This document shows, piece after piece, positions 17,304-37,757 of a stretch of DNA of 38,285 bases. The stretch spans positions 1 through 38,285 of the forward strand of contig VMSP01000094.1 of the NCBI GenBank assembly GCA_013792135.1, given 5' to 3'. The DNA is from Desulfocapsa sp. (GTDB lineage: Bacteria > Desulfobacterota > Desulfobulbia > Desulfobulbales > Desulfocapsaceae). The notes beneath the pieces were generated by a model. The model was not told the DNA's origin. It saw only the letters and a list, made by a program, of their open reading frames with translations, and searched no databases. Numbering within the stretch: the first letter of the stretch is position 1; the number at the start of each line of letters is the position of its first letter. The position numbers were made by a program, and so were the translations under genes.

Positions 17304-18854
17304 TCAAACTCCGGGCAAAATAATGGTAAAGGTTGTTCCCTCTCCCTCTTTGCTCTCAACCCCAATGTTTCCATGATGATGCTCGATAATATTCCTGCTT
17401 ATGGCAAGACCAAGACCTGTTCCTCGATTTTTATCACTAAAAAAGGGCTTGAAGATCTGCTCTGCCTTTTCAGCAGACATTCCCTTACCGTTATCACGAA
17501 CAATAATTTTCACGACTCCCGTAGGTCGCTCCTGCGCCGCCCCTGGTTCCTGTATCATTTGGCCATCCTGGGCCATCACCGAACCGACAACTGTTCCTCT
17601 AGTGGTCGAGACCTGCAACACTCCGTGATCATCCATGGCCTGCAGGCCATTCACCACGATATTCAGCAAAGCCCGATAGAACATCTCCTGATCCAGAGCA
17701 ATTGGAGCCAGAAGAGGTTCAAGCTCTGCCCGTAACTCGATATTTTTTTCTCGCGCACTGGGCTCAATAAACTGCAAGGCCTTGCGGACAACAGTATTGA
17801 CATCAACCCTCGACAGCTTAGGTTCCTGAGGTCTTGCAAAATCAAGGAATTCCATGACGATATTATTCAGCCGTGTGGTCTCATCTACAATAATGCTGGC
17901 CAATTGCTCATTCCCCGGAGCCACCTTTTTAATTCTCTTTTCCAGAAGTTCAGCCGTACTTCTGATAATACCCAAGGGACTTTTGATCTCATGGGACACG
18001 GTGGCCACCATCGTTCCCAGATGAGCAAGCCGTTCTGACTGGTTCAATTTTTCTTCCAGACGAAGCCGTTCCGTGGCCCGAATTTCCATGAGCCGGTCAC
18101 CACGACTGACAATGGTACGAAGAACAATAAACAATACCGCCATAATAATGCTGGAAACCAGGATAATCCGTCCCTGCAATTCGATTATGGCACCATATTC
18201 CTTGGAAAGATCCTGGGTAATCTCTATAACCCCCATGATCTGTGGACTGGCAGTCGTGCTGTTACTGACCTGACGAAAGGGGATATAGGTCTTGAGCTGA
18301 CATTGAACTGATGGCGCCCCAGGGATCAGATTCCAGAGGGAGCCACTGAAAACAATCTGAGAAATGGGGTTATTTTTCAAGGCCTTCTGATATTCAACTC
18401 CTCCCACATCCTTCTTGCCTACGAGCTCAGGACGGGTCGAATACGAAATAATATTGATACTGGAATCATAGATGGTAACCGATTCAGTTTTAAGCCCCTG
18501 AGTGGCATTTTTAACGATACGATCCAACATCTCAAACTGATCCGGATGACTGAGGGCAATTTTACCGAAACGAACTACAGTCGGCAGGACAAAGCTACGA
18601 AAAACCTGTTGATTCAGATTTTCCGCCAGCAGGAGTGAATACTCCTCACTCTGCTCCAGCATAATCTTTCGGGCATGATTAGAGATAACCCAGGAGAGGA
18701 TCAGGGTAAAGACAAGAATAACCCCAAGACTGGTGAAAGAAAAATACTTAACTAGTTGGAAGGGACGTAAACCAGCCTGTACATCCTCCCGCCGCAGTTT
18801 TTTTTTCACTGCCAGTGAGATCATCTTCCCAGATGAACTTTCTTGATCAACCAT
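17304..18854 (-). CDS. membrane sensor histidine kinase, NtrB-like core
   Basis: A 516-residue two-pass sensor kinase. Start ATG 18854 has GGTGG about 8 bases upstream. TM1 lies near residues 35-58 (SLGVILVFTLILSWVI) and TM2 near 220-245; the 165-residue loop between them is extracytoplasmic and resembles a dCache/PAS-like sensor (SVTIYDSSINIISYS, a FGKIAL start). The kinase core has H-box VSHEIKSPLG, N-box NIVVNGLQAM, G1 DNGKGM, F-box FKPFFSDK and G2 GTGLGLAISRN. The C-terminal type is that of NtrB/ZraS kinases, which often partner sigma54 activators. No partner regulator adjoins it. It follows the radical SAM gene by 89 bases, possibly co-transcribed. Confidence 0.9.
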   Translation of the reverse strand: MVDQESSSGKMISLAVKKKLRREDVQAGLRPFQLVKYFSFTSLGVILVFTLILSWVISNHARKIMLEQSEEYSLLLAENLNQQVFRSFVLPTVVRFGKIALSHPDQFEMLDRIVKNATQGLKTESVTIYDSSINIISYSTRPELVGKKDVGGVEYQKALKNNPISQIVFSGSLWNLIPGAPSVQCQLKTYIPFRQVSNSTTASPQIMGVIEITQDLSKEYGAIIELQGRIILVSSIIMAVLFIVLRTIVSRGDRLMEIRATERLRLEEKLNQSERLAHLGTMVATVSHEIKSPLGIIRSTAELLEKRIKKVAPGNEQLASIIVDETTRLNNIVMEFLDFARPQEPKLSRVDVNTVVRKALQFIEPSAREKNIELRAELEPLLAPIALDQEMFYRALLNIVVNGLQAMDDHGVLQVSTTRGTVVGSVMAQDGQMIQEPGAAQERPTGVVKIIVRDNGKGMSAEKAEQIFKPFFSDKNRGTGLGLAISRNIIEHHHGNIGVESKEGEGTTFTIILPGV

Positions 18855-20806: not shown

Positions 20807-22033
20807 TCAATTTGCCTTTTTCCGAAGATACGTTGGAGTCTCCAGATAATCCTCATTCCAGGGCCGCGATTCCTTTTGACTGCGTCCCACCTCTTTACGG
20901 GACGAGGAAACACCAAGGTTATCAAAACCTTCAAAATTAGATTGCAGCAGAGGAGTGACAAAGGTTGGCCGCGGGTTGGCTGGAGCCGGTGCAACAGGGG
21001 TCTCCTGCGTGGCTGCAATTTTCACTGTCTTACGTGGTTCATCCATCAGAGTGATCGGCTCATTTTTCTTGACCACATTACCTATTCCCGTCGCGATAAC
21101 AGTAACACGCAATTCATCACCAAGGGTTTCATCGTAAAGTACACCCAGAACAACCTTGGCATCCTCATCCACCTTACTTTGAATGAGAGCCGATACCTCC
21201 ATATATTCAGCCAGAGTTAAACTCTCTTGTGTTGCCGAAATATTAATAATTAAGCCGCGGGCGCCATCTATCCCCACATCTTCAAGGAGCTGATTGTCAA
21301 TAGCCCGTTTGGCCGCCTCGGTTGCCCTGTTTTCACCAACGGCTGCGCCGGATCCCATGATGGCAGGCCCCACTTCTCGCATGACCGTGCGCAGATCTGC
21401 AAAATCAGCATTAATCATTCCCGGCACATTGATCAGGTCGGTGATCCCCTTAACCGCCTGCAACAGAACAAGATCGGCCATGACGAGCATATCGGCAAGC
21501 CTGGTATTTTTCTGCATCAGAGAGAGAAGCCGATCATTGGGAACGGTAATGATCGTATCCGCATATTTCCGCAGTTCTTCCCAACCTGCTTCGGCATTGC
21601 GCATGCGGGACTTACCTTCAAAATGAAACGGTTTGGTCACCACTGCTACAGTGAGTGCACCCATTTCCTTACTCACTTTGGCTACAACGGGGGCAGCACC
21701 TGTTCCGGTACCACCACCAAGCCCGGCTGCGACAAAAACCATGTCGCTACCCTTCAGAACCTTCTTAAGTTCCTCGAGTGATTCATGAGCAGCCTGGGCA
21801 CCGATATCCGGATCAGTGCCTGCACCCAACCCTTTGGTGATACTGGGCCCGATCTGCAGACAGATATCCGCAAGCGACTGGTTCAGGGCCTGCTTATCCG
21901 TATTGGCTACAATAAACTCAACACCCTGCAGCTTATTGTTGACCATGGTGTTGATGGCATTCCCACCGCCACCGCCGACACCAATAACCTTTACCACTGC
22001 AACCCCTTCTGTTTCCGCCATTCTAAACGGCAT
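20807..22033 (-). CDS. ftsZ: cell division GTPase FtsZ
   Basis: A 408-residue bacterial tubulin that polymerises into the Z-ring. Start ATG 22033 follows GGGGTGAG; a second in-frame ATG 4 codons later is possible. GTP-binding landmarks: [12 protein letters not shown] near residue 20, tubulin signature [13 protein letters not shown]7 loop [11 protein letters not shown]. After a roughly 65-residue variable linker (Pro/Ala-rich) it ends in [14 protein letters not shown], the conserved C-terminal peptide that binds FtsA. It is last in the dcw cluster, 116 bases after ftsA. No unusual residues are seen. Confidence 0.97.
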
Positions 22034-22149: not shown

Positions 22150-23421
22150 TCACATGATTTTTTTCATCAACATCTTCATGCGCCCGAACATTGAAGAGTC
22201 ACCGCTTATTCTCTGCACCCGATGCTTACGGCCATACATGACCAGACCGACAGCAGTTGTGCAGCGCGGGGTATGAACCTCTTCTACACGCCCTCCAATC
22301 TTCACCGGATACCCGATTCGTACCGGCAGATCAAATATCTGTTCGGCAAGGTCCACCAGATTGGCAAGCAAAGCTGTTCCACCAGTAATTACTACCCCGC
22401 CGTGGATCTTATTTTTTTTCCCGGAGTGAATAAGTTCCTGGTTAACCATCTCCAGGATTTCCACAATACGGGCCTGCAAAATATCCACCAGAACCTTCTG
22501 GGTCACCTTACGTGGTTCCCTATCGCCTACGGTCGGCACATCAACCACGTGATTCGGTTTGATCAATGAGGCGATAGCACTGCCATAATCCTCCTTTAAG
22601 CGCTCAGCCTCCTGGAGTGGTGTCCGCAATCCCACCGACAGGTCGTTGGTCAGGTTATGTCCACCAAGCCCTATCTCACAGGTGTGCCTGATAGTCCCGT
22701 CGCAGAAAACCGCAAGATCCGTGGTGCCACCCCCGATGTCAACAAGGGCCACCCCCAGCTCCATCTCATCGGCACTGAGTACGGCATAGGCTGAGGCGAT
22801 GGATTCCAGCACCATATCCAACACCTCCAGACCTGCCTTCCGACAACAGGTATAGAGATTATGCACGGCGGCCATGTCAGCGGTAACAATGTGTACATTG
22901 GTAACGAGACGAACCCCGGTCATTCCCAAGGGGTTCTGAATCCCAGTATGATCATCCACCATATACTCCTGAGGCAGGACATGGATAATCTGCTGATTTT
23001 CTGAGATCTTCACGGTCTTGGCCGCCACAATCACATCTTCGACATCAGCCTCTTTGATCTCCCTGCCGTTAATGGCCAGGATTCCGGGACTGTTGAACCC
23101 TTTAATGTGATTTCCGGCAATCCCCACATAAACAGTATGCAGTTCGCATCCGGCCGCCTCTTCCGCCTGTTCCACGGCCTGCCGAATAGATTTGACGGTG
23201 GACTCGATATTGACCACAATCCCTTTTTTCAATCCCACCGAGGGCGCAGTACCCACACCTATGATATCCACCCCATCATCGAAGACCTCTCCCACGACGC
23301 AGCATATCTTCGTGGTTCCAATATCGAGCCCAGCCACGACCTCACCTGGCGCCCGTTTTTCACAAGCCTGCTCCTCTTCAACCACTGGTTCTATATCATT
23401 CATTTCATTTATTTCACTCAT
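22150..23421 (-). CDS. ftsA: cell division protein FtsA
   Basis: A 423-residue actin-like ATPase that tethers FtsZ to the membrane and signals to later division proteins. Phosphate-1 motif GLDIGTTKICCVVGE near residue 30, VDIGGGTTDLAVF as phosphate-2, and VVITGGTALLANL as the adenosine motif. The C-terminus, RMKMLMKKIM, is an amphipathic membrane-targeting helix as in other FtsA proteins. The N-terminus has an acidic extension of about 25 residues. Start ATG 23421 lies 6 bases after the ftsQ stop; ribosome binding is weak, suggesting coupled translation. Confidence 0.96.
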   Translation of the reverse strand: MSEINEMNDIEPVVEEEQACEKRAPGEVVAGLDIGTTKICCVVGEVFDDGVDIIGVGTAPSVGLKKGIVVNIESTVKSIRQAVEQAEEAAGCELHTVYVGIAGNHIKGFNSPGILAINGREIKEADVEDVIVAAKTVKISENQQIIHVLPQEYMVDDHTGIQNPLGMTGVRLVTNVHIVTADMAAVHNLYTCCRKAGLEVLDMVLESIASAYAVLSADEMELGVALVDIGGGTTDLAVFCDGTIRHTCEIGLGGHNLTNDLSVGLRTPLQEAERLKEDYGSAIASLIKPNHVVDVPTVGDREPRKVTQKVLVDILQARIVEILEMVNQELIHSGKKNKIHGGVVITGGTALLANLVDLAEQIFDLPVRIGYPVKIGGRVEEVHTPRCTTAVGLVMYGRKHRVQRISGDSSMFGRMKMLMKKIM

Positions 23422-23427
23422 CAGTTT

Positions 23428-24480
23428 TCAACCCGATCCGCTGTGTGCCACCAGCACCTTATTCTCCAAATAATCCATACGGATATACGCAACATCTGCA
23501 ATGGTCATTCCCTGCTCTGTTTCTTTATACAAAACCTCCAGCACCCTTTTTAAACGACTGTATTTCGTTCTGATAGCACCTACACCAAAATAAATGGGAA
23601 AGGGGTAATCAGCCAGATAGATGGTCATCCCCGCATCACGGTCAACATGAATCTCAGAGAGATTCTGGAGCGGAAGATTAGGATTATTCTGTCTGACAAG
23701 TTTGAGCAAGGCTAATGCCTCACTGATCCTCTCCGACCGACCGCCATCGCCGCCCCCACCATCCTTGGCTCCCACACCATTAGGCCTTCTCTGACCGATA
23801 TTTCCCTTTGTTTCCAGGCCGGTTATAACCGGAAGGTCCATATCCTGTCCAGGATCAACCGGCGCAAAAACAACCCCGTTCTTATCCATATAAAAAAACT
23901 GCCTGCCGCCAGGGACATCCTGAGTTATCAAGGCTTCAGGTACATATTCCTTAATATAAACTACCACCACATCGGGCCAGTCACGCGTAACCTCTACCGC
24001 CGCTATCCATGGATGCGATCTGAGAATGGCCGCGATATGTTCCGGATTAAGCCTGACCAGACTGGCCTGATACCTGATGCCGGTAAGTTCTCGAATCATG
24101 GCCGGAGAGGTCTGCCGACAACCGCTAATGCTAATTTCCTGTATCTTGAAAATGTTCATGCCTGACACAGCACTCATCAACGGTGAATAAAGCACAAAAC
24201 TTAACAATACAACAAAAGCCAGAAGACATACCGGTATCAATCCCCTCGGAGTCCTCCTTTGTGCCACAACAGGTACCCGCTTCAAGCCCTTACTTCTGGC
24301 CGATCTCTTAAACAGCGATCGTATCCTGCTGATGATTCCGCCACGTTTCTGATGTTGAGCAGCAGACCTTGAGGTAAATACAGGTTGATTCCCACGGCCC
24401 GCAATTCCACTACGAACACTTCTGTTGCCCTTCTTAGGTAAGCGAAAGAGAGAGCCTATGTTTTTCAGAGAGTTCAACAC
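23428..24480 (-). CDS. ftsQ: cell division protein FtsQ/DivIB
   Basis: A 350-residue bitopic divisome protein. A basic cytoplasmic tail of about 80 residues leads to TM near 83-105 (PVCLLAFVVLLSFVLY), then a POTRA domain (FKIQEISISGCRQTSPAMI, LRSHPWIAAVEVTRDWPD) and a beta domain (QFFYMDKNGVVFAP, LPVITGLE). A Gly/Asp-rich insert (GAKDGGGGDGG) interrupts the beta domain. Start is GTG 24480, with no strong ribosome binding site. FtsQ normally links FtsL and FtsB; here it lies between murB and ftsA, and no ddl gene is present between them. Confidence 0.92.
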   Translation of the reverse strand: MLNSLKNIGSLFRLPKKGNRSVRSGIAGRGNQPVFTSRSAAQHQKRGGIISRIRSLFKRSARSKGLKRVPVVAQRRTPRGLIPVCLLAFVVLLSFVLYSPLMSAVSGMNIFKIQEISISGCRQTSPAMIRELTGIRYQASLVRLNPEHIAAILRSHPWIAAVEVTRDWPDVVVVYIKEYVPEALITQDVPGGRQFFYMDKNGVVFAPVDPGQDMDLPVITGLETKGNIGQRRPNGVGAKDGGGGDGGRSERISEALALLKLVRQNNPNLPLQNLSEIHVDRDAGMTIYLADYPFPIYFGVGAIRTKYSRLKRVLEVLYKETEQGMTIADVAYIRMDYLENKVLVAHSGSG

Positions 24481-26838: not shown

Positions 26839-27999
26839 TCAGTTGGTTATCAATTCCAAACAAACATCAACTATCCTTTCCGCGGCATCAGGACGTGCCA
26901 TGGACTGCATGGCCTCTGCCATCTCTTGCAATCGTCCAGGATTACTGACAAGAACAGCCAGGGCCTCTGCCAGTTTCCTTCCCGTCAGTTCACGCTCCAC
27001 GAACATCACGGCCCCACCACTGTCAACATAATAGCGACCATTCTTATATTGATGATCATCAGCGGCAAAGGGATAAGGGATCAGCAGTGCAGGTTTTCCA
27101 AGAACTGCCAACTCGGCAAGGGTGGTAGCGCCAGCTCTTGAGACCAGCAAATCACTCTTTCCATAAATCTCTGCCATATCGGTAAAAAAAGCTGCCACCG
27201 TGGCCTTGATTCCTGCCTGTTCATAAGCCAACCGCACCATCTCCTGATCCGCGACGCCTGTCTGATGAATAACCTCTATGCCTGGTGGCAATATCTTATC
27301 ATACTTGGTCAAGGCATCCACCATCAGTTCATTGACCCGGTGCGCGCCCAAGCTGCCTCCCAGGATCAGAATCCTTACCTTATCACCGTTTTTCCTGGGT
27401 GGTCGCTCTTCATCCATCCTTGGAGCGAGCGACACTGGGACATCCTTGGCCTGCGACTTCCCGGCCAGTTCCAGGATCTGACGACGCACAGGATTACCGG
27501 TCAGCACCATTTTTCCTGCCGGGAAAAAATTCTCACTGCCGGGGAGAGAAAGACAGATTCTTGTGGCCAAGCCACCCAATTTTCTATTGGCTAGCCCCGG
27601 CACCGAATTCTGTTCATGAATCACGGTTGGAAGCCCCAGAATCTTTGCTGCAGCCACCACCGGTCCCGTCACATAGCCGCCGACACCCACCACTAGATGC
27701 GGGTGAAAACGGAGGATATGCCAGAGGGCCTCCACCAGGGAGAGCGGAAGTAGAATCAGGGCCTGAAGCAAAGCCAAGGCCCCCTTTCCTTTTAATCCTT
27801 GGCAATGGATGGTCCTGGTACTGAAACCATAGTGGGCAAGGCTGCTCTTATCCATTTTCCGTCGCGTTCCCACAAAAAGTATCTCGGTACCTGGAAAACG
27901 GCGGCACATGGCCTCTGCCGTGGCAATGGCCGGGAAAAGATGTCCCCCGGTCCCGCCACCGGTAAGCAGCAGCCGTATGGGTTCCTGCCTCTTCCCCAT
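26839..27999 (-). CDS. murG: UDP-GlcNAc:lipid I transferase MurG
   Basis: A 386-residue membrane-associated GT28 glycosyltransferase that makes lipid II. N-terminal GGGTGGHLFPAIA loop, HEQNSVPGLANR, donor-site GGSLGAHRVNE, and LVSRAGATTLAEL with PYPFAADDHQYKNG. A charged insert (MDEERPPRKNGDK) lies before the donor motif, a common spot for variation. Its ATG overlaps the murD stop by one base (TGATG 27997-28001). In most dcw clusters ftsW lies between murD and murG; here there is no room for it. Confidence 0.96.
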   Translation of the reverse strand: MGKRQEPIRLLLTGGGTGGHLFPAIATAEAMCRRFPGTEILFVGTRRKMDKSSLAHYGFSTRTIHCQGLKGKGALALLQALILLPLSLVEALWHILRFHPHLVVGVGGYVTGPVVAAAKILGLPTVIHEQNSVPGLANRKLGGLATRICLSLPGSENFFPAGKMVLTGNPVRRQILELAGKSQAKDVPVSLAPRMDEERPPRKNGDKVRILILGGSLGAHRVNELMVDALTKYDKILPPGIEVIHQTGVADQEMVRLAYEQAGIKATVAAFFTDMAEIYGKSDLLVSRAGATTLAELAVLGKPALLIPYPFAADDHQYKNGRYYVDSGGAVMFVERELTGRKLAEALAVLVSNPGRLQEMAEAMQSMARPDAAERIVDVCLELITN

Positions 28000-29375
28000 C
28001 AGATATCACCATCCTGGCATGCGACAGGCCCTGACTGGTCAATCATCCTCTGTACTGCCGCCGCAAAGACCCTGCCCCGATGGCCATAATTCTCAAACAT
28101 ATCAAAACTGGCACAGGCAGGAGAAAGCAGCACCGTATCCCCAGCTCTGGCAAGGGACGCCGCCAGCGTCACCGCCTCTTCCATTGAACAGGCCTTCCGC
28201 AGCTCAGTCACCCCTGCCAGAGCCTGGGCGATCAGCTCTGCGGCCTCACCGATCAGGATCAGAGTGCGCACCTTTCGAGCGACACTCTCTTGCAGCAGAG
28301 TATAATCATCGCCCTTGTCACGGCCACCGGCAATAAGGATCACGTTCCCCTTAAAATTTTCCAGAGCACTGAGAACGGCTCCGGTATTGGTGGCCTTGGA
28401 GTCATCATAATAAGAGACCCCGGCAGCCTTCCCCACTAAAGCCATTCGATGAGCCGCCACCTGAAAGGCAGCCAGACCCTTCGCTATCAGCTCTTGCCCA
28501 CAGCCTAAGCTGCGGACGGCAAGGATGGCAGCTGCGCTGTTCAATGCACCTGTAGCAGTATCAAGCATGGAACCCGTAAGGTCATAACGCTCTTCGCGTC
28601 CTTGCCACAAAAGCATAACCCTATGATCTTCAATCCGCGCCTGACAGTCCCGGCCATGCCCAAAAAGCAGCTGCCGCTGCCCGCCACCAAGGCCCGGCAA
28701 CATTTCTCGACAATAGTGATCATCACCGCTGAGAATTGCCGTGTCATTCTGTCCCTGCCTGGAAAAAATCTTCATCTTGGCCGCCACATAGCAATCCATG
28801 CTGCCGTGACGGTCCAGATGATCCGGAGTCACATTGAGGAGGATCGCCACATCAGCCTTAAAGGCCCCTGCTGCCTCCAGCTGAAAACTTGACAGTTCAA
28901 GGACCAGCACATCAACATATTCAGGATTATTGAGATACTCAAAAAGCGAAGTACCGATATTGCCACCGACAAAGACCCTTTTTCCGGCCCCTTGCAACAA
29001 CTCGCCAATCAGGGAGGTCACAGTGGTCTTACCATTGGTACCGGTGATGGCAACTACCGGTTTGTTGATGAGCGGAGCAGCCACAGCCAATTCACCCAGC
29101 ACCGGAATCCTAAGGGCTCGAAGCTGCTGGAGGATCTCCAGCTCCTGCCTGATTCCGGGACTGACCAGAATCTTATCAGCCTGCCTGAGAAAGTCCAAGG
29201 TGTGACCGCCCCATTCGTATTCCACCACATATTCTGCAAGAAAGTCCCGGTCTGCTGTCGGTAACTGCTGAACGTCCCTGGCGTCAGAAACCAACACCCT
29301 CACCCCCTGCGATACCAGATAACGTACCGCCGCCCGGCCAGAGACTCCCAGCCCCATCACCGCAACGCAAGACAT
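27999..29375 (-). CDS. murD: UDP-N-acetylmuramoylalanine--D-glutamate ligase
   Basis: A 458-residue Mur ligase adding D-Glu. Start ATG 29375 has AGGAG 5 bases upstream and gives the usual short lead into GLGVSGRAAVRYL. A second candidate, ATG 29441, overlaps the mraY stop as TGATG exactly like the murD/murG and mraZ/rsmH joints, and would add 22 residues; both may be used. Motifs: GTNGKTTVTSL, LELSSFQLE, NVTPDHLDRHG, DDSKATNTGAV, GGRDKGDDY, LLSPACASFDMF. The enzyme looks intact. Confidence 0.94.
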   Translation of the reverse strand: MSCVAVMGLGVSGRAAVRYLVSQGVRVLVSDARDVQQLPTADRDFLAEYVVEYEWGGHTLDFLRQADKILVSPGIRQELEILQQLRALRIPVLGELAVAAPLINKPVVAITGTNGKTTVTSLIGELLQGAGKRVFVGGNIGTSLFEYLNNPEYVDVLVLELSSFQLEAAGAFKADVAILLNVTPDHLDRHGSMDCYVAAKMKIFSRQGQNDTAILSGDDHYCREMLPGLGGGQRQLLFGHGRDCQARIEDHRVMLLWQGREERYDLTGSMLDTATGALNSAAAILAVRSLGCGQELIAKGLAAFQVAAHRMALVGKAAGVSYYDDSKATNTGAVLSALENFKGNVILIAGGRDKGDDYTLLQESVARKVRTLILIGEAAELIAQALAGVTELRKACSMEEAVTLAASLARAGDTVLLSPACASFDMFENYGHRGRVFAAAVQRMIDQSGPVACQDGDI

Positions 29376-29440
29376 TGACACTCCTGGGATGGGTAAAGAG
29401 GGATCATGCCTACCGACTGCTTTGTTAACTTGCCTGGTCA

Positions 29441-30520
29441 TCAGCGCAGCTTCAAAGTAGCAACGGCTATAAGACCCAGGATAACAGAAACAATCCAAAA
29501 CCTGACCACCACCTTTGGTTCGTGCCAGCCTTTTTTCTCAAAATGATGATGAAAAGGTGCCATAAGGAAGATCCGTTTGCCATTGGTCATCTTAAAATAT
29601 CCCACCTGCAAGATGACGGATAGCGCTTCCATGACAAAGATCCCGCCGACAATGGCCAACAGGATCTCCTGTTTGATAATGATGGCCACCGAACCCAAGG
29701 CCCCGCCCAGAGCCAGCGATCCGACGTCACCCATGAAGATCTGGGCCGGATAGGCATTAAACCACAGAAATCCTAGAGATGCCCCGACCATCGCCCCGCA
29801 AAAGATAGCCAGTTCGCCTGCTCCCGGCACAAAGGGAATTTGCAGATACTCCGCCAGCACGGTATGTCCGGCCAGATAAGAAAAGATAAGATAGACCGCT
29901 CCGGAGATAACCGTTGGGCCAGTGGCAAGACCATCAAGACCGTCGGTAAGATTTACCGCATTCGAGGCTCCAACAATGACCAATACCGCAAAGACAACAT
30001 AAAACCAGCCAAGGTCAGGATGAATATTTTTAAAAAAAGGTACACTCAACTGCCCGTCAAATCCTGGATGCAGAAGCACAAAGAGACCAACCACGGAAGC
30101 GCCACCAATCTGCAGAATCAGTTTCCCTCTGGCACTGAGCCCTTTGGTGTTTTTCTTGTGCACCTTTTTCAGATCATCAATTGCCCCGATCATGCCGAAA
30201 AACAAGGTCACAAAGAGCAGCAACCACACCAATGAACTGTCGAGTCTGGCCCACAACAGTGTCGAGCAGGTAATGGCAGAGAGAATCAGCACCCCACCCA
30301 TGGTGGGCACTCCCTGCTTTGCCAGATGAGTTTCCGGCCCGTCATCCCGTACCACCTGTCCAATCTGAAAATGCCGCAGAGCCCTGATAAACATTGGTCC
30401 CAGGATAATCATCAGCAGAAAGGCCGTCACCGCACCGCCAATAGAACGTACGGTGATATAGCGGAAGATATTAAAACCGCTGAAAGCGGTATGCAGTGGG
30501 TAGAGAAGATGGTAGAGCAT
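29441..30520 (-). CDS. mraY: phospho-N-acetylmuramoyl-pentapeptide transferase MraY
   Basis: A 359-residue multipass membrane enzyme that makes lipid I on undecaprenyl phosphate. About ten hydrophobic segments are seen. Signatures: [32 protein letters not shown], and [20 protein letters not shown]. Length is normal. The ribosome binding site is weak. It lies 79 bases after the murE-murF fusion gene. Confidence 0.96.
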
Positions 30521-30599: not shown

Positions 30600-33500
30600 C
30601 TACAAACTTTCCTGCAACTGTTCTACCACTTCTTCAAGGCGCTTCCCCCTTGAAGCTTTGACCAGCAGCCAGTCACCAGCCTGTAACTGACGTGCGGCCA
30701 GAAGCTCTTCTATCCAGACCACCACATCCTTCTTCTCCCGAAAAACCCTGATGCGCTGACTGTCCATACCTGCCATTCTCGCCCCCGTGGCAGTCTCTGC
30801 CGCAAAATTACCGATCAGGGCCAGATAATCAATGAGCCGCTCCGCCGCATACCCTCCCACTTCCCGATGGGCCTCAGCGCTGGCCTGCCCCAGCTCCAGC
30901 ATATCTCCCAGGATGGCCAGCCGCCTTCCTTTACCCTGCTGAGCAAGGGTCGTAAGACCTGCCCGCATTGAGGCCGGATTGGCATTATAAGTATCATTGA
31001 GAATATACAAATCCCCCTTGCCTTTGACAATCTGCATTCGTTTATCAGCAGGCTGGAATACGCTAAGCCCTGCGCCGATCTCTCCTATACTAAGGCCTGC
31101 AGCATGGGCAATGGCCGCAGCAGCCACCGCATTGGAGACATTATGAACACCCGGAACATGCAAGGTCACAGAGATTGTCTCCAATGCGATATGGAGGACA
31201 AAGGTCTGGGCGCTACTTCCCTCATTCCATATGGCAGAAGCCCAGACCTGAGGTCTGTGACGCATACCTTCTTCACCTGCTGAATAAAAAACCTTTTTCT
31301 GCGAATACTTTTCAGCACAGTTCCGCACATGGGGATCATCCAGATTAATCACCAAGGTACTGCCTTCACCACTTCCGGCAAAGAGCTCTTCCTTAGCTCG
31401 AGCAACCCCTTCGATGGAGTGCAGCCCCTCGAGATGCACGGCATGGACATTGACAATACAGGCGATATCAGGGTCAGCAATACGGACAAGCCTGTCAATC
31501 TCACCTGGCCGGTTCATCCCCATCTCAAGAATTGCAGCCCTGTGGCCTGGATTCATGGGCAAGAGTGAGAGGGGTAGCCCGATAAGATTATTAAAATTGC
31601 CTCTGGTCTTCAATACCTGATCAAAAGACGCCTGAGTCCTTGGATTCAACTCCTGCCAATGCTGTTCAAAGATCGCCGCAGTCATCTCCTTGACCGTGGT
31701 CTTGCCACAACTACCGGTAATCCCCACCACCAACGGCCCACTGATCGCCTTCATCACCTGCCGCCGATATGCGGCCAGATCACCCAAGGCCTGTAAAGTA
31801 TCATCCACCAACAGACAGGGAATACCAGGAAGCGCCTCCAAATGAGTTCCACGGCGAATCACAAGACATCCTGCACCAGCAGAGGCCACCAGTTTCAGAA
31901 AATCATGACCGTCAAACCTCTCTCCGGCCAGGGCCACAAAGATATCACCCGCGACCACTTTCCGGCTGTCGGTGACCACTGATCCAAGAGAAGTTATTCC
32001 CCTCCTCTCTCCGATCAGCTCACCGTGAGCAGCGAGACGAAGATTTTCAAGTCTCCAGCTGGTCAATCCTTTTCGGACCTCAAGAGTGTCATCAAAGAAA
32101 CGCCTACCATCCGGCCCAAGCTGATACCGTTCATGCCCTTTCCCAGCAATAAGTACAATATCTTCGACCGTTGCCGCAGCAATGGCCAAGGATATTGTCT
32201 GGGCACGATCATGAAGCACCAGAAATCCCTTTTCATCTCCGGCCGAAGCCATGAGCCAGGAAGATTCCCGTTCTTCCAGATCCGATAAGCGGACACCGGA
32301 GGCTATCTGAGCCATGATCTCCTGGGGTGATTCACTCCGGGGATTATCGTCGGTGACCAGTACCACATCGCTGCAACGACCGGCGATCTCACCCATGATG
32401 GCCCGTTTCCCTTTGTCCCGATCACCGCCGCAGCCAAAGACACAGATCAATCTCCGATGCGGAAGCCGGGAAAGAGTTTCTAAGACCTTTTCCAGGGCAT
32501 CCGGGGTATGGGCATAATCAACAAACACCGCTGGCCGGAAGTGTTTTTCCTGTTCTGCCGCCATTATCCGCTGCAGGCGTCCCGGCGCCCCGGACGCCTG
32601 CCCCAGCATCATAGACAAATCTTGCACCTCAACTCCCAGGGCCAGCCCAATCCCCATCACGGTCAACAGGTTTGCAACATTAAAATCACCCACCAGAGTA
32701 GTCGTAATCTGAATTTCATCTTCGGAAGCATGCAGGGTTATGGTAGTGGAATTCAAACCTGACTGGACACGCAAAGGATAAATATCACCGTTTCCACCAC
32801 ACTGCCACACCTGAGCGCCCTGAATTTTACACAAGTCAAGCAGTTGTTGCGTCCTTTGTTCTTCCTCAGGATCATGACCTGCTGTCCGGGTAATAACAGC
32901 TTTGCCGCCCTTTTTCAGATGATCACGAAAGAGGAGGGCCTTGGCTGTAAAATAATCAGCCATGTCCTGATGATAGTCCAGATGATCACGAGAGAGATTG
33001 GTAAAGGCAACCACATCAAATTGCAGATCTCCAAGGCGGTGCTGGACTAAAGCGTGGGAGGAAACCTCCATAATCACATGGGTTACACCGGCATCAGCCA
33101 TCTGCCGCAAAAGAGACTGGAGCAAGAGCGGTTCAGGAGTCGTGAAGGGGGCTGGAATCTTAAAATCCTGCCCCTTAGCATCACGATACCGATAGTTAAT
33201 CGTGCCGATAACCCCAACCGCCAGCCCCTGCTGTCTCAGGACACTCTCAAGGAGATAACTGACCGTGGTCTTACCATTGGTACCGGTGACTCCAACCAGG
33301 GTCAATCCCTGTGCCGGCTGACCATACAGATTGGCCGCAATCTGCGCATAGGCCAGATGGCTATCTGCAACCACAATCACACACTGACTACAATCAGCAA
33401 ACTGCTCTGGCCTCACCCGGCCTTCTTCAACCACCAAGACCGCAGCCCCACTGGCCATCACCTGCTCCAGATAATCATGCCCATCCGTTCTGCTTCCGGT

Positions 33501-33686
33501 AAGGGCCACAAAAAGCGACCCGGCCTGTATTTTCCGGGAATCAATCGTTACATCAGAGACGACTATTCCTGCGGGCAGTTTTTTACCCAAAAGCGAATAA
33601 GCCACAGAAGCCAGAAGCGTCTCAAGCAAGTCTTGCTTGCAGTTACACTCTTCAACAAACAGCTTTTCGGGTCTTACACTATCCAT
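30600..33686 (-). CDS. murEF: MurE-MurF fusion: DAP-adding and D-Ala-D-Ala-adding ligase
   Basis: A 1028-residue bifunctional Mur ligase. Residues 1-540 are MurE: GTNGKTT at 135-141, the probable carbamylated Lys249 in YFTAKALLF, and DNPR at 447-450, the motif for meso-diaminopimelate specificity. Residues 541-1028 are MurF: TSWRLENLRLAAHGEL start, GITGSCGKTT at 655-664, GMNRPGEI, and YNANPASMRAGL. The two are joined at the point where MurE would end (RRFFDDTLEVRKG) with almost no linker. MurE-MurF fusions are known, for example in Bordetella. The start ATG 33686 lacks a Shine-Dalgarno. Two adjacent steps of stem-peptide assembly are thus held in one chain. Confidence 0.95.
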   Translation of the reverse strand: MDSVRPEKLFVEECNCKQDLLETLLASVAYSLLGKKLPAGIVVSDVTIDSRKIQAGSLFVALTGSRTDGHDYLEQVMASGAAVLVVEEGRVRPEQFADCSQCVIVVADSHLAYAQIAANLYGQPAQGLTLVGVTGTNGKTTVSYLLESVLRQQGLAVGVIGTINYRYRDAKGQDFKIPAPFTTPEPLLLQSLLRQMADAGVTHVIMEVSSHALVQHRLGDLQFDVVAFTNLSRDHLDYHQDMADYFTAKALLFRDHLKKGGKAVITRTAGHDPEEEQRTQQLLDLCKIQGAQVWQCGGNGDIYPLRVQSGLNSTTITLHASEDEIQITTTLVGDFNVANLLTVMGIGLALGVEVQDLSMMLGQASGAPGRLQRIMAAEQEKHFRPAVFVDYAHTPDALEKVLETLSRLPHRRLICVFGCGGDRDKGKRAIMGEIAGRCSDVVLVTDDNPRSESPQEIMAQIASGVRLSDLEERESSWLMASAGDEKGFLVLHDRAQTISLAIAAATVEDIVLIAGKGHERYQLGPDGRRFFDDTLEVRKGLTSWRLENLRLAAHGELIGERRGITSLGSVVTDSRKVVAGDIFVALAGERFDGHDFLKLVASAGAGCLVIRRGTHLEALPGIPCLLVDDTLQALGDLAAYRRQVMKAISGPLVVGITGSCGKTTVKEMTAAIFEQHWQELNPRTQASFDQVLKTRGNFNNLIGLPLSLLPMNPGHRAAILEMGMNRPGEIDRLVRIADPDIACIVNVHAVHLEGLHSIEGVARAKEELFAGSGEGSTLVINLDDPHVRNCAEKYSQKKVFYSAGEEGMRHRPQVWASAIWNEGSSAQTFVLHIALETISVTLHVPGVHNVSNAVAAAAIAHAAGLSIGEIGAGLSVFQPADKRMQIVKGKGDLYILNDTYNANPASMRAGLTTLAQQGKGRRLAILGDMLELGQASAEAHREVGGYAAERLIDYLALIGNFAAETATGARMAGMDSQRIRVFREKKDVVVWIEELLAARQLQAGDWLLVKASRGKRLEEVVEQLQESL

Positions 33687-33782: not shown

Positions 33783-35831
33783 TTATTTCCTCAAAGCACC
33801 CTTTATTAGTTCAATTTTATTTTTTATATTGCTCTCACTCGTGGATTTTTTTTTACCAGCTACGTGATTGCCTGCTTGTTCATCTTTCTTCAAGGTAAGC
33901 AGGCAATCTTTCACCCCGCCAAGCGATATACCAGCGGTCGGGCTCTGGGCCACAACACGGCCTGTCCCTTGGATCCGCACCTTTAGTTTCTTATCCTGCA
34001 ATACATGCAAGGCCCGCCTCAGACTCATGCCGGAAAGGTCAGGCATGAGTGGATGGTGCCGTTCCAGCATGGTCTCCAGCCCGACCGGATTTTTTTTCTT
34101 TTGTTCCTGCTGGTAGTTAGTCTCTTTCCTTTCAGACTTACTCATCATGTCGGAAAGATTTTTATGCACCTGCTGCAGTGCCACCATTGACGGCAGGATC
34201 TTCCCCGCCGGCCCGACAAGATCAAAAACATCTTTCGCTGAGTCAATGGATGGTTCAAGATATGGTTGACGCACCATTACCATAAGAATCAGTTCCGGTT
34301 TGTCTGCCGGCAGCAAGGCAAACATCATTCTGGTTCTGAGATATTCGCTATTTTTACCAACCGGCTGCAAAGAGAGATCCGGGACATCAACAAAAACTGA
34401 ATCAAGTACCCCTTTCTGTCCTTGGGCCTTTAATAAACTCCATGTTTCAGCCAATGCCGGCTGCAACACCTGCCCATGTTCTTCACCGATCCCCTCATCC
34501 CTGGTTCCCGCACCATCAGGACCTCCCTGTCCATTACCTGCTGCAAAAGATCTGAAAAAATACTCGCGGGCACCATTCCGCTCCATAATGCGATCAAGCA
34601 CATGCGGCAAGACCTGATGGCCACCATTTAACAGAGAGTTCAAGCCAATAAGTATCTGTATGGGCGTTGCTGTGGACGGCACGGTTCCCGTTCCACTTTC
34701 TGGTACAACAGCTTTTCTCCCAATCCCGCCAACATCAGGATGAATATCCTGCATCGAAAAATCCAGATCCGGTGCGGCACTCAAGCCCAACCGCTGCCAC
34801 AAACGAAGTTCGCTTCCGCTATCAGAAGACCCTGCCGTGATGCTCCACGGGTAGCTCTGCTTTCCCTGCCGCCAATCAGCCTGAAGTAAAGCCGAGTCAT
34901 GAAACAACTTACTGATTCCACAAGGAATAACCACAGGCTCCAACAAGATATTGGCAAAATTCTGTTTCTTATATTGATAAAATAAATTCGGATCGAAGGA
35001 AGGGAAATTTGCATTGGCAACGATTGCACCCGTTTCTGTCTCCATGAGAAGAGCTACAATCTCCGCATCCTCATGTACCGCACCAAGGGCTGTCACGTAT
35101 TTTTCAAGAAATTCCTGTATCTTCAGGTCGATGGTCAGGACAAGATGCTGACCACTGATACCGGTCTTATAATGGCCTGCCAAATCGATCTGGGGAAAAT
35201 CATCCCGACTGATGCTGGCCTGATCAAGGAGACGATTATAATAACGCTCCACCCCGGCCAATCCCATATTCCGATCCGCAAAACCAATCACATGAGCGGC
35301 AATACTTTTATACGGATAATAGCGAACCTGTTCCCGATGCAGAAAAACACCCGAAAGATGAAGATCCGCCACTGCCTTTTCTTCTTCCAGGCTAATATCT
35401 TTAGCCAACCAGATCCGCTGGTTATCCTTATCCAGACGGGCCAGCAGCTCTTGCTCATCCAGACCCAGAACTGTGGCAAGCTGCCCGGCACTGCCATGCA
35501 CATCTTCCAGCTCTCTGGGTCTTACATAGAGAGAAACCCGATCAAGAGATAAGGCCAACTCCTTGAAGCTACGATCATAAATCGTCCCGCGTACATTTTT
35601 TTCCTTATCTGTCGCCTTCTCCTGCCCGGAAAATATCTTGTAAACAAAGCCTGTAAGCGCAGACCAAGGATGGTCCAGTGTCGAGGGCGCTAAGGACGGC
35701 GCAGGAGCGACCGCCTGCCTATACAGAGCAGCACCAGCTACAACTCCTGCGACAACAATCAGGGCAATTCCCAAAAATGCCAACCCGCTTCGCCCGCTTT
35801 TCTTTCCCCTCCGACGCGACTGGATGACCAT
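33783..35831 (-). CDS. ftsI: FtsI-like penicillin-binding protein lacking active-site motifs, with PASTA domain
   Basis: A 682-residue bitopic protein in the ftsI slot. Start ATG 35831 places a basic tail before the TM (LAFLGIALIVVAGVVAGAAL); a GTG at 35930 is an alternative adding 33 residues. The pedestal/dimer domain is well kept (VRGTIYDRSFKELALSLD, AAHVIGFADRNMGLAGVERY). The transpeptidase fold is also recognisable (VLTIDLKIQEFLEKY, NANFPSFDPN, ATPIQILIGLNSLLNGG). Yet the SxxK motif reads PCGISK (Ser replaced by Gly), the SxN position reads SSD, and no KTG is found in the late beta-strand region (VDVPDLSLQPVGK). A PASTA domain (LMPDLSGMSLRRALHVL) and a Lys-rich tail follow. It is probably catalytically dead; the gene is one unbroken frame. 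Confidence 0.88.
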   Translation of the reverse strand: MVIQSRRRGKKSGRSGLAFLGIALIVVAGVVAGAALYRQAVAPAPSLAPSTLDHPWSALTGFVYKIFSGQEKATDKEKNVRGTIYDRSFKELALSLDRVSLYVRPRELEDVHGSAGQLATVLGLDEQELLARLDKDNQRIWLAKDISLEEEKAVADLHLSGVFLHREQVRYYPYKSIAAHVIGFADRNMGLAGVERYYNRLLDQASISRDDFPQIDLAGHYKTGISGQHLVLTIDLKIQEFLEKYVTALGAVHEDAEIVALLMETETGAIVANANFPSFDPNLFYQYKKQNFANILLEPVVIPCGISKLFHDSALLQADWRQGKQSYPWSITAGSSDSGSELRLWQRLGLSAAPDLDFSMQDIHPDVGGIGRKAVVPESGTGTVPSTATPIQILIGLNSLLNGGHQVLPHVLDRIMERNGAREYFFRSFAAGNGQGGPDGAGTRDEGIGEEHGQVLQPALAETWSLLKAQGQKGVLDSVFVDVPDLSLQPVGKNSEYLRTRMMFALLPADKPELILMVMVRQPYLEPSIDSAKDVFDLVGPAGKILPSMVALQQVHKNLSDMMSKSERKETNYQQEQKKKNPVGLETMLERHHPLMPDLSGMSLRRALHVLQDKKLKVRIQGTGRVVAQSPTAGISLGGVKDCLLTLKKDEQAGNHVAGKKKSTSESNIKNKIELIKGALRK

Positions 35832-35971
35832 CTTAGCTCTAGTTAAACTCTTATTTGTAAAGAATAATTTTGATCTTAGAATAATAGGAAGGATATAAGA
35901 ATTCGTCAGGGAATACCCTGAGAAGGTCACTCCTATGCCACCCTTGACACAGGAGTAGTCCTGATCGTCCC

Positions 35972-36334
35972 CTAAAAGCGGGTAATCTGTTCTTTTCCAG
36001 GGACATAGAGCGCGAGCTGACTTGCCGCTATCTTATTGAGATACTCAGGAGAATAAAGACGGGCCCGCTCAGCCCTGAGCTTGATATGTTCATCCATAAG
36101 GACATAACGACCTTTTTCTGCATCCTCAACAACTAAAGCTAGCCGACCAGCAGAGGATGTCAGCCAGAAATTCACCATAAGAAGCAATGGACAGAAGAAG
36201 AGCAACACCTTCCCTACAGCCATCCACAATATTTTCGGACCGAGCACACTAAGAGCTTTTTGCCGCAATTGCTGGTGCATTGACGATGACATCATGGGAC
36301 GGCTATATGCTTGGACAGATTGATTGATAAACAT
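35972..36334 (-). CDS. ftsL: FtsL-like divisome protein
   Basis: A 120-residue small bitopic protein with a TM near residues 40-60 (VGKVLLFFCPLLLMVNFWL), then a charged coiled-coil-prone helix (HIKLRAERARLYSPEYLNKIA) and an end LALYVPGKEQITRF that fits FtsL (the 'L..P...Q' style). Position between rsmH and ftsI is the classical ftsL place. Start ATG 36334 has GGAGGG 8 bases upstream. FtsL sequences are weakly conserved, so the call leans on position and layout. Confidence 0.85.
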   Translation of the reverse strand: MFINQSVQAYSRPMMSSSMHQQLRQKALSVLGPKILWMAVGKVLLFFCPLLLMVNFWLTSSAGRLALVVEDAEKGRYVLMDEHIKLRAERARLYSPEYLNKIAASQLALYVPGKEQITRF

Positions 36335-36387: not shown

Positions 36388-37287
36388 TCATTTCCTGGCC
36401 GCCACTCTCAATCGTGCACTACGCGCCCTGTAATTTGTCGCAATCTCAGCTGCTGTCGGCATTACAGGTTTGGAGGTAAGGATCTCCATATCGCCCTGTT
36501 CTCTAAATTTTCGTTTCACCAATCGATCTTCCAGAGAGTGAAAAGAAATCACACAAAACCTTGCCCCGGATCGAAGCAGTGACGGAGCATCATCAAGAAT
36601 TCGGGCCAGATTCTCCAACTCCCCATTCACGGCGATTCGCAGGGCCTGAAACACCTTGGTGGCCACATGAATCTTCTCGGGATGAAAACGCCGGGGGATT
36701 GCCTTGGCCACAACAACTGCCAGTTGCCCAGAGCTTATGATCTTCTCTGGAAATCGGGACCGTACAATCTCTCTGGCAATCGGCCTGGCCTGCTTTTCAT
36801 CACCATAATAAAAAAAAATGTCTGCCAGTTCTTCTTCAGTACACGTTGCAAGCAGCGATGCTGCCGTCACTTCCCGCCTGGTATCCATCCGCATATCAAG
36901 GGGTTCATCATGCCGGAAACTGAAGCCGCGGCCTCCCAGATCCAGTTGCAGGGAAGAAAGACCGATATCTATGAGGATACCATCCACCTGCTCGACTCCG
37001 AGCTCTGCCAAACCGGCACCGATCTCGGCAAAATTACGTCTGACAATGGTCAGACGGTCGCCAAAAGGCTGCAATCTGACCCGACTCCTGGCAATGGCAT
37101 CTTCATCCCATTCAAAGGCAATGACCCGACCATCCGGTGCAGAGTGGCGTAAAATTGCCTCGGTGTGGCCGCCAAGACCTAATGTACCATCAACATATAA
37201 TCCGCCTGAGCGGGGAGCGAGATAATGGAGAATCTCGGCGGGTAATACTGAACAATGAACAGATTCTTCCTGCTCCTCGGGCTCCAT
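36388..37287 (-). CDS. rsmH: 16S rRNA m4C1402 methyltransferase RsmH
   Basis: A 299-residue SAM-dependent methyltransferase (MraW). Start ATG 37287 overlaps the mraZ stop as TGATG; a TTG one codon earlier is not needed. Motifs: GTLGLGGHTEAIL for SAM binding, GILIDIGLSSLQLD, GFSFRHDEPLDMRMD, FQALRIAVNGEL, CVISFHSLEDRLVKR. All are typical and the length is normal. It methylates C1402 of 16S rRNA in the ribosomal P-site region; its dcw location is conserved. Confidence 0.96.
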   Translation of the reverse strand: MEPEEQEESVHCSVLPAEILHYLAPRSGGLYVDGTLGLGGHTEAILRHSAPDGRVIAFEWDEDAIARSRVRLQPFGDRLTIVRRNFAEIGAGLAELGVEQVDGILIDIGLSSLQLDLGGRGFSFRHDEPLDMRMDTRREVTAASLLATCTEEELADIFFYYGDEKQARPIAREIVRSRFPEKIISSGQLAVVVAKAIPRRFHPEKIHVATKVFQALRIAVNGELENLARILDDAPSLLRSGARFCVISFHSLEDRLVKRKFREQGDMEILTSKPVMPTAAEIATNYRARSARLRVAARK

Positions 37288-37757
37288 CAAAAAATACCCA
37301 ATTTGGCCAGACTCTCCGTATAATCCCCAAAATTCTCCCGGGTGGCCTGATTTTCCATCTCCCAGGCCTCTTTGTCCCAGATCTCCACATAGTCGAGCAT
37401 CCCGGTCAGCACTACATCCTTGACTATCCCGACCTCACTGCGCAGCGTGGGAGGAAGCAACACTCGACCCTGCTTGTCAGGTTGACACGGTGTTACCCCG
37501 GAGACCACCAGACGGATAAAACCAGTCAGCCCAGGCTGTTCACGACCATTGGTCAATAACTTATTTTCCAGAAGCTCCCATTGAGAGACAGGGAAGATGC
37601 GAAGATGAGCACCCCAACTGGTCACCATCAACTCTTCAGAATCATACTGCGCAAGGACGTCCCTGAATCTACTGGGGACATTCAATCGTCCTTTAATATC
37701 GAGCGCGTGTTCCGACCTGCCGCGAAATCTGCTGGCTGTTAAGTTGCTGTTTTCCAT
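37287..37757 (-). CDS. mraZ: transcriptional regulator MraZ
   Basis: A 156-residue AbrB/SpoVT-type DNA-binding protein with two tandem motifs: HALDIKGRLNVPSRFRDVL near residue 18 and PDKQGRVLLPPTLR near residue 95. It is known to repress the dcw cluster by binding repeats upstream of its own gene; such repeats are visible here (37780-37811). Start ATG 37757 follows GGGAGG closely. It is the first gene of the cluster. Confidence 0.95.
   Translation of the reverse strand: MENSNLTASRFRGRSEHALDIKGRLNVPSRFRDVLAQYDSEELMVTSWGAHLRIFPVSQWELLENKLLTNGREQPGLTGFIRLVVSGVTPCQPDKQGRVLLPPTLRSEVGIVKDVVLTGMLDYVEIWDKEAWEMENQATRENFGDYTESLAKLGIF

Follow-up and report, generated by a model that had tools for sequence, protein, structure and literature searches.

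The dcw cluster of the window

The window analysed here is a stretch of 38,285 nucleotides from Desulfocapsa sp. (class Desulfobulbia, phylum Desulfobacterota), and represents one contig of a 4.2 Mb genome (186 contigs, 99.99% complete). On its minus strand lies a dcw cluster with the gene order mraZ, rsmH, a gene for an FtsL-like protein, ftsI, murE-murF, mraY, murD, murG, murC, murB, ftsQ, ftsA, and ftsZ. The following genes are relevant.

37287..37757, minus strand: mraZ (E 7.9e-25)
36388..37290, minus strand: rsmH (Methyltransf_5, E 2.7e-99)
35972..36334, minus strand: FtsL-like small protein, 120 aa (ftsL_broad E 0.0012, below cut-off; no Pfam match)
33783..35831, minus strand: putative FtsI pseudoenzyme, 682 aa (start at the ATG of MVIQSRR, 35831, backed by homologues)
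30600..33686, minus strand: murE-murF fusion, 1028 aa (two Mur ligase domain sets)
29441..30520, minus strand: mraY (Glycos_transf_4, MraY_sig1)
27999..29498, minus strand: murD (abuts murG, with no ftsW between)
26839..27999, minus strand: murG
23428..24480, minus strand: ftsQ (POTRA_1 and FtsQ_DivIB_C)
22150..23421, minus strand: ftsA
20807..22033, minus strand: ftsZ

The ftsI slot between rsmH and murE is conserved across the windows compared. The murE-murF fusion recurs in windows of families f1, f6, f56, f69, f75, f80, f93, and f100, and is absent in eight other families of the class that were examined.

An FtsI lineage protein without its active site

The ftsI frame is open beyond the assigned start, to a GTG (33783-35930, minus strand; 715 aa). 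Within the 682-residue protein, the following elements were assigned.

35721..35789, minus strand: single hydrophobic N-terminal membrane anchor, approximately residues 15-37 (assigned by eye)
35277..35591, minus strand: pedestal, residues 81-185 (PBP_dimer, PF03717; Pfam E 5.3e-12)
34818..35057, minus strand: Transpeptidase remnant, residues 259-338, the sole part that Pfam still recognises (profile positions 2-78 of 299)
34908..34925, minus strand: PCGISK at the SxxK position, where intact relatives have EPGSxxK (profile alignment)
34821..34829, minus strand: SSD near the SxN position, in a region that has lost about 30 residues relative to intact FtsI
34356..34418, minus strand: stretch with VDVPDLSLQP at the KTG-strand position (alignment)
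33930..34046, minus strand: PASTA domain, residues 596-634 (Pfam E 2e-8)

Pfam matches above cut-offs thus comprise PBP_dimer, the first quarter of Transpeptidase, and PASTA; no NCBIfam model matched the protein at its cut-off. A profile alignment (hhalign) of 24 degenerate relatives with 11 intact FtsI sequences from the phylum joins the two sets over 543 columns (probability 100, E 3e-68). The EPGSxFK of intact FtsI aligns with IPCG-ISK; the degenerate proteins lack about 30 residues between SxxK and the next landmark, leaving KSSN unmatched; and AGKTGTAQ aligns with VDVPDLSLQP. The SxN position is the least certain of the three, since its region is shortened.

The first-pass annotation had located these three sequences by reading, and had proposed a pseudoenzyme that lost all three motifs and kept its anchor, pedestal, and PASTA domain. 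The positions hold, and the comparison with intact proteins places the motifs as proposed, with the reservation noted for SxN. All three motifs are gone in the profile alignment, and the retained parts were recovered by Pfam (pedestal and PASTA) and by eye (anchor).

The PDB was also searched with the family profile. In two of the resulting alignments, with SpoVD (7rcz) and a "Penicillin-binding protein 1" (7o49), the match is strong from the pedestal into the first part of the Transpeptidase domain and weak past the active-site region. Structure models were of low confidence (pLDDT 38.5 for the whole protein, 42.8 for a trimmed relative), so the motif loss rests on sequence alignment. A Foldseek search with the pLDDT 42.8 model ranked PBP3/FtsI first (E 1.8e-7, TM 0.29), a result that carries little weight given the low-confidence model. 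A juxtamembrane SEDS-contact motif was present in 0 of 24 degenerate and 4 of 11 intact proteins, a contrast too weak to use as evidence.

Judged from its sequence, the gene is an ftsI orthologue whose product lacks the catalytic motifs. Its lineage is indicated by the dcw slot between ftsL and murE (the FtsL assignment being below cut-off), by profile similarity, and by the anchor and pedestal; of the D,D-transpeptidase motifs SxxK, SxN, and KTG, none was found. By descent the protein is FtsI; as an enzyme it falls outside the class B PBP definition.

Extent and selection in the genus and class

Orthologues were obtained from 14 of 17 genomes of the genus, including all 11 of the most complete ones, and the catalytic motifs are absent from all 14. 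The PCG sequence is confined to the source genome in the genus alignment, its relatives mostly having IPxxIR there. In 68 aligned family proteins from 17 genera, SxxK is missing from the aligned position throughout, the alignment has a gap at the SxN segment, and another sequence stands in place of KTG.

The class sample offered 217 genomes, of which 162 were read individually at the ftsI locus and 55 were not. None of the 162 has PGSxxK and GKTGT motifs in place. Stray matches to these two patterns number one each, in different proteins; five KTG-like strings all lie away from the KTG strand; and an SxxK-like string occurs within 60 residues of the landmark in 10 of 159 proteins, at scattered positions. 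Frames of at least 600 aa account for 154 of the 162; seven are partial, including those of G044 and G140, where the frame is broken into two. FtsI was not found in a few class genomes (for example, G092, which also lacks rsmH, and G101).

Across five genus pairs, dN/dS is 0.17-0.29 for the whole gene and 0.06-0.25 for the pedestal. Four of the pairs show tighter constraint on the pedestal than on the transpeptidase remnant, and one shows the reverse; the N-terminal 80 residues show dN greater than dS in one pair. The genus orthologues therefore evolve under purifying selection and are not one decaying copy. The local decay that intact motifs in relatives would have indicated, a possibility raised in the first-pass annotation, is not supported by the genus or the class survey.

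A dispersed 55-bp repeat lies within ftsI (35658-35712, minus strand), as an in-frame insertion of 18 aa (VAPAPSLAPSTLDHPWSA) that is common to one close relative and missing in 12 other aligned members of the genus. It is also found in a 1143-aa frame of the source genome, which we take to resemble RecC rather than a PBP, and in at least six further genomes of the genus, in tandem in one (loci L025-L033). A diverged, opposite-strand copy lies at 17524-17572 of the window, the 49-nt arms being 71% complementary. Short matches at approximately residues 72-92 of the 715-aa query had suggested paralogues, which were rejected: all eight loci (L025-L032) contain the repeat.

FtsW and the remaining penicillin-binding proteins

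In the window, murD abuts murG, which leaves no room there for ftsW. A SEDS profile search of the source genome likewise did not find FtsW. The single SEDS match is RodA (score 409.5 vs a cut-off of 336.7; with the FtsW model, 293.6 vs 337.5), and its gene adjoins mrdA, near mreB; mreC and mreD presumably lie between mreB and mrdA/rodA. In the 159 class genomes with a completeness of 90% or more, a hand count gave one SEDS match in 151, two or three in five (G022, which is 8% contaminated, G110, G118, G155, and G201), and none in three. On this profile and locus evidence, FtsW appears to be absent from the source genome, and the SEDS counts point the same way for nearly all of the class.

Two class genomes, G124 and G138, lack mreB, mrdA, rodA, any SEDS match, and the gene adjacent to rodA, presumably hemH. 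If they have truly lost the elongasome, that would be informative. Their use to exclude RodA-MrdA as septal synthase was nevertheless dropped: a gap in assembly or binning is likelier, because the gene that neighbours rodA in relatives is missing too.

The first-pass annotation had also proposed that catalysis moved to another PBP, and had suggested looking for a second catalytic class B PBP. In the source genome, PF00905 matches five places (MrdA, three class A PBPs, and the ftsI-slot gene) and PF03717 matches two (intact MrdA and the ftsI-slot gene). A further, catalytic FtsI was not found by these searches and is rejected; they leave MrdA, encoded in the mre-mrd-rodA cluster, as its sole intact class B PBP. 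Hand-counted PBP_dimer matches in 197 class genomes number two in 185, one in ten, three in one, and none in one; the MrdA motifs are intact in all six class examples viewed (L001, L116, L117, and L261-L263).

Several class A PBPs are present. Among the matches listed, 105 class genomes have two to six Transgly matches each. The three of the source genome, all with transpeptidase matches, comprise one plain protein, one with UB2H, and one of approximately 1,120 aa. The last (L004) has a stretch of several hundred residues within the transpeptidase region and is a candidate septal synthase; Transgly frames of 1,130-1,240 aa occur in at least 14 class genomes.

Two features of an FtsW-FtsI-independent divisome were thus found: absence of a division SEDS protein, by both profile and locus search; and absence of a functional division class B PBP, by motif only. 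Because FtsI is without its motifs and FtsW was not found, the FtsW-FtsI septal synthase appears to have been abandoned.

Coupled losses in the rest of the phylum

Outside the class, 362 genomes at least 97% complete were surveyed, and a hand count gave two SEDS matches in 272, one in 79, and three in 11. The ftsI slot was read in 33 out-of-class genomes, with 18 intact and 15 degenerate, a ratio that is not a frequency because genomes were picked deliberately and single-SEDS families are over-represented. Three of the intact proteins have a KTGT that is visible by reading and was missed by a narrower pattern. An MrdA-like gene outside the ftsI slot (L215; G231, contig 10) was excluded from this count. 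The dcw cluster was not found in three single-SEDS genomes (G260, G427, and G525).

In the windows where both the FtsI state and the murD-murG interval could be read, the two agree without exception. All 25 windows with degenerate FtsI, including the source window, lack a SEDS gene between murD and murG; in each of the 15 windows with intact FtsI, the dcw stretch includes a SEDS gene, directly after murD in 14 and after murG in one (L243). This count omits windows that end before murG or murD (L226, L246, L255, L316, and L319). Six of the 15 intact windows belong to out-of-class genomes (G227, G228, G262, G474, G503, and G549) in which the dcw FtsW is the sole SEDS match. Since these single-SEDS genomes keep FtsW, it is the loss of FtsW, and not a low SEDS count alone, that tracks dead FtsI. 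RodA has apparently been lost in the same six genomes.

Seven dcw proteins from 45 taxa were used to build a tree (2542 columns; LG+G4 with fast search; root G244; murC in 18 taxa only). MrdA loci without dcw (L221 and L230-L234) were excluded from the trees, as were RsmH, MraY, MurD, MurG, and MurC genes of 180 aa or less. The class and families f25, f33, f34, f56, f64, f68, f69, f75, f80, f86, f93, and f100 form one group (SH-aLRT 99.1), and FtsI is degenerate in every member read. A second branch, comprising f30, f55, and f96 (support 100), is nested among families with intact FtsI. A 35-taxon tree likewise splits the two degenerate groups (0.898 and 1.0). Counting loss as irreversible on the 45-taxon tree gives two events, which implies at least two independent losses. 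The first-pass annotation was therefore right about the motif loss and too narrow about its extent: FtsW appears to be gone as well, the loss extends through all class genomes read, and a second lineage has undergone it independently.

The remnants differ in form. Out-of-class degenerate proteins of the first branch range from 340 to 643 aa. Those of the second (L222, L229, and L235) are 248-333 aa; they begin with a hydrophobic segment and end in a PASTA-like stretch, and the part between is unrecognised. The opposite remnant, in which the start of the pedestal is kept and no PASTA-like end is seen, occurs in f56, f93, f80, f34, and f33 (L220, L223, L227, L311, and L312). Overall, a PASTA-like end was recognised by eye in 10 of the 15 out-of-class degenerate proteins, and the active site is kept in none. 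Because five of the 15 end without such a stretch, PASTA is dispensable in places, and slow decay also fits.

A proposed structural part of the divisome

These observations suggest a model in which the dead FtsI is a non-catalytic part of the divisome, kept after the FtsW-FtsI pair was abandoned, while a class A PBP, RodA-MrdA, or both make the septal wall. We consider this model quite likely. The FtsW-FtsI septal synthase would have been given up, and FtsZ, FtsA, FtsQ, the FtsL-like protein, and the FtsI body would have stayed. Selection would most likely retain the dead protein as a membrane-anchored structural component. In the class, its pedestal may contact FtsQ and FtsL, and its PASTA domain may contact peptidoglycan or its precursors; together, the two could recruit or stimulate another synthase. 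Polymerisation and cross-linking of septal peptidoglycan would then fall to a class A PBP, to RodA-MrdA with a dual role in elongation and division, or to the two together.

A broader form of the model we consider somewhat more likely than not. The class, whose members we take to be diderm, and several neighbouring lineages of the phylum would divide without the FtsW-FtsI enzyme. Ancestral loss of FtsW would have freed FtsI to become a pseudoenzyme whose body (the pedestal and, in the class, PASTA) steers a different synthase; the second branch would have done so independently, with FtsI trimmed to anchor and PASTA.

Which synthase builds the septum divides the model. The chances are about even that it is a class A PBP, recruited by the dead FtsI in an arrangement like that of Clostridioides difficile. 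The two to six Transgly matches per class genome (among the matches listed) and the three class A PBPs of the source genome provide the means; C. difficile provides the precedent (PMC10693644, PMC12539705); and binding of Escherichia coli PBP1b to FtsI has been reported (PMC12539705). However, a division role for any particular class A PBP would be argued by analogy. The RodA-MrdA (PBP2) pair, serving in both elongation and division and recruited or activated at mid-cell by the dead FtsI, is the less likely choice of the two. These are the sole SEDS protein and sole intact class B PBP of the source genome, and the class counts fit. Moreover, class B PBP pedestals activate SEDS proteins, and in four of the five genus comparisons the pedestal here is more tightly constrained than what remains of the transpeptidase domain. 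Nevertheless, the genes adjoin mreB, which is an elongasome setting, and in C. difficile RodA and PBP2 perform elongation, also without the division pair (PMC10693644).

Two further explanations were weighed. It is improbable that ftsI is a functionless relic in slow decay. The shorter forms in other branches (529, 457, 440, 340, 333, 329, and 248 aa), the absence of PASTA from five of the 15 out-of-class proteins, the two split frames, and the looser constraint, relative to the pedestal, on what is left of the transpeptidase domain in four pairs of the five are what decay would produce, but the class frames are nearly all long (154 of 162 at 600 aa or more), whole-gene dN/dS is low, and the operon slot is conserved. 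We regard it as very improbable that the window FtsI is catalytic through a rearranged site, as a transpeptidase or otherwise. The fold may persist, to judge from the Foldseek ranking with the low-confidence model; yet the nucleophile position has no conserved Ser or Lys among the 68 aligned family proteins, the SxN region is short, KTG is replaced, and the motifs are missing in all 162 class proteins read. The model of a structural FtsI, retained without its enzyme activity, accordingly remains the preferred one. The class probably builds the wall between daughter cells without the FtsW-FtsI pair, as far as can be told from gene content in genomes many of which are incomplete.

Relation to known systems

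The FtsW-FtsI pair has been regarded as universally essential for septal wall synthesis (PMC10693644). Absence of ftsW, ftsN, and zipA, and a patchy distribution of ftsL, were reported for four Desulfobulbaceae species (PMC7873302). This cable-bacteria survey counts FtsI among the recruited division proteins, and its available portion mentions neither a dead site nor a class-wide coupling. The absence of ftsW in those four species is therefore already in print. No published report of a naturally inactive dcw FtsI, or of its extent, was found in a search that covered subscription journals thinly and so is weak evidence of absence. The first-pass statement that no described case was known should be softened, since C. 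difficile and Bacillus subtilis PBP2B come close.

Only one characterised exception to FtsW-FtsI was found, in a spore-forming bacterium that uses its dcw pair for sporulation. The exception described here spans a class of sulfur-cycling bacteria, including the family of the cable bacteria as named in PMC7873302, and would represent a natural separation of the structural role of FtsI from catalysis. It predicts unusual beta-lactam behaviour, with insensitivity to FtsI-specific drugs such as aztreonam. The graded forms, from full-length pseudoenzyme to short remnants, constitute a comparative series on the part of FtsI that the divisome needs.

FtsI (PBP3), the class B PBP of the divisome, for example that of Pseudomonas aeruginosa in the FtsWIQBL complex (PDB 8bh1), is matched by the window protein in profile orthology, dcw slot, anchor, and pedestal; the C-terminal PASTA domain matches an intact relative from the phylum. 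The window protein differs in that the three motifs are gone, about 30 residues are lost between SxxK and the post-SxN region, and the partner FtsW is absent.

In B. subtilis, catalysis by PBP2B is dispensable and the protein is essential, with PBP3 substituting for the activity (PMC12713402, PMC5656894). Both cases would involve a division class B PBP required as a body and not as an enzyme. However, PBP2B is itself an intact enzyme with a proposed role in FtsW activation, whereas catalysis and FtsW are both missing here.

C. difficile divides without a canonical FtsW/FtsI pair, and its class A PBP1 builds the septal wall (PMC10693644, PMC12539705). Both systems appear to lack an FtsW-FtsI synthase, with FtsQ- and FtsL-like genes still present. 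The dcw pair of C. difficile is the sporulation pair SpoVE/SpoVD; here, by contrast, FtsW is missing and FtsI is kept without its active site, throughout a class of presumably diderm bacteria.
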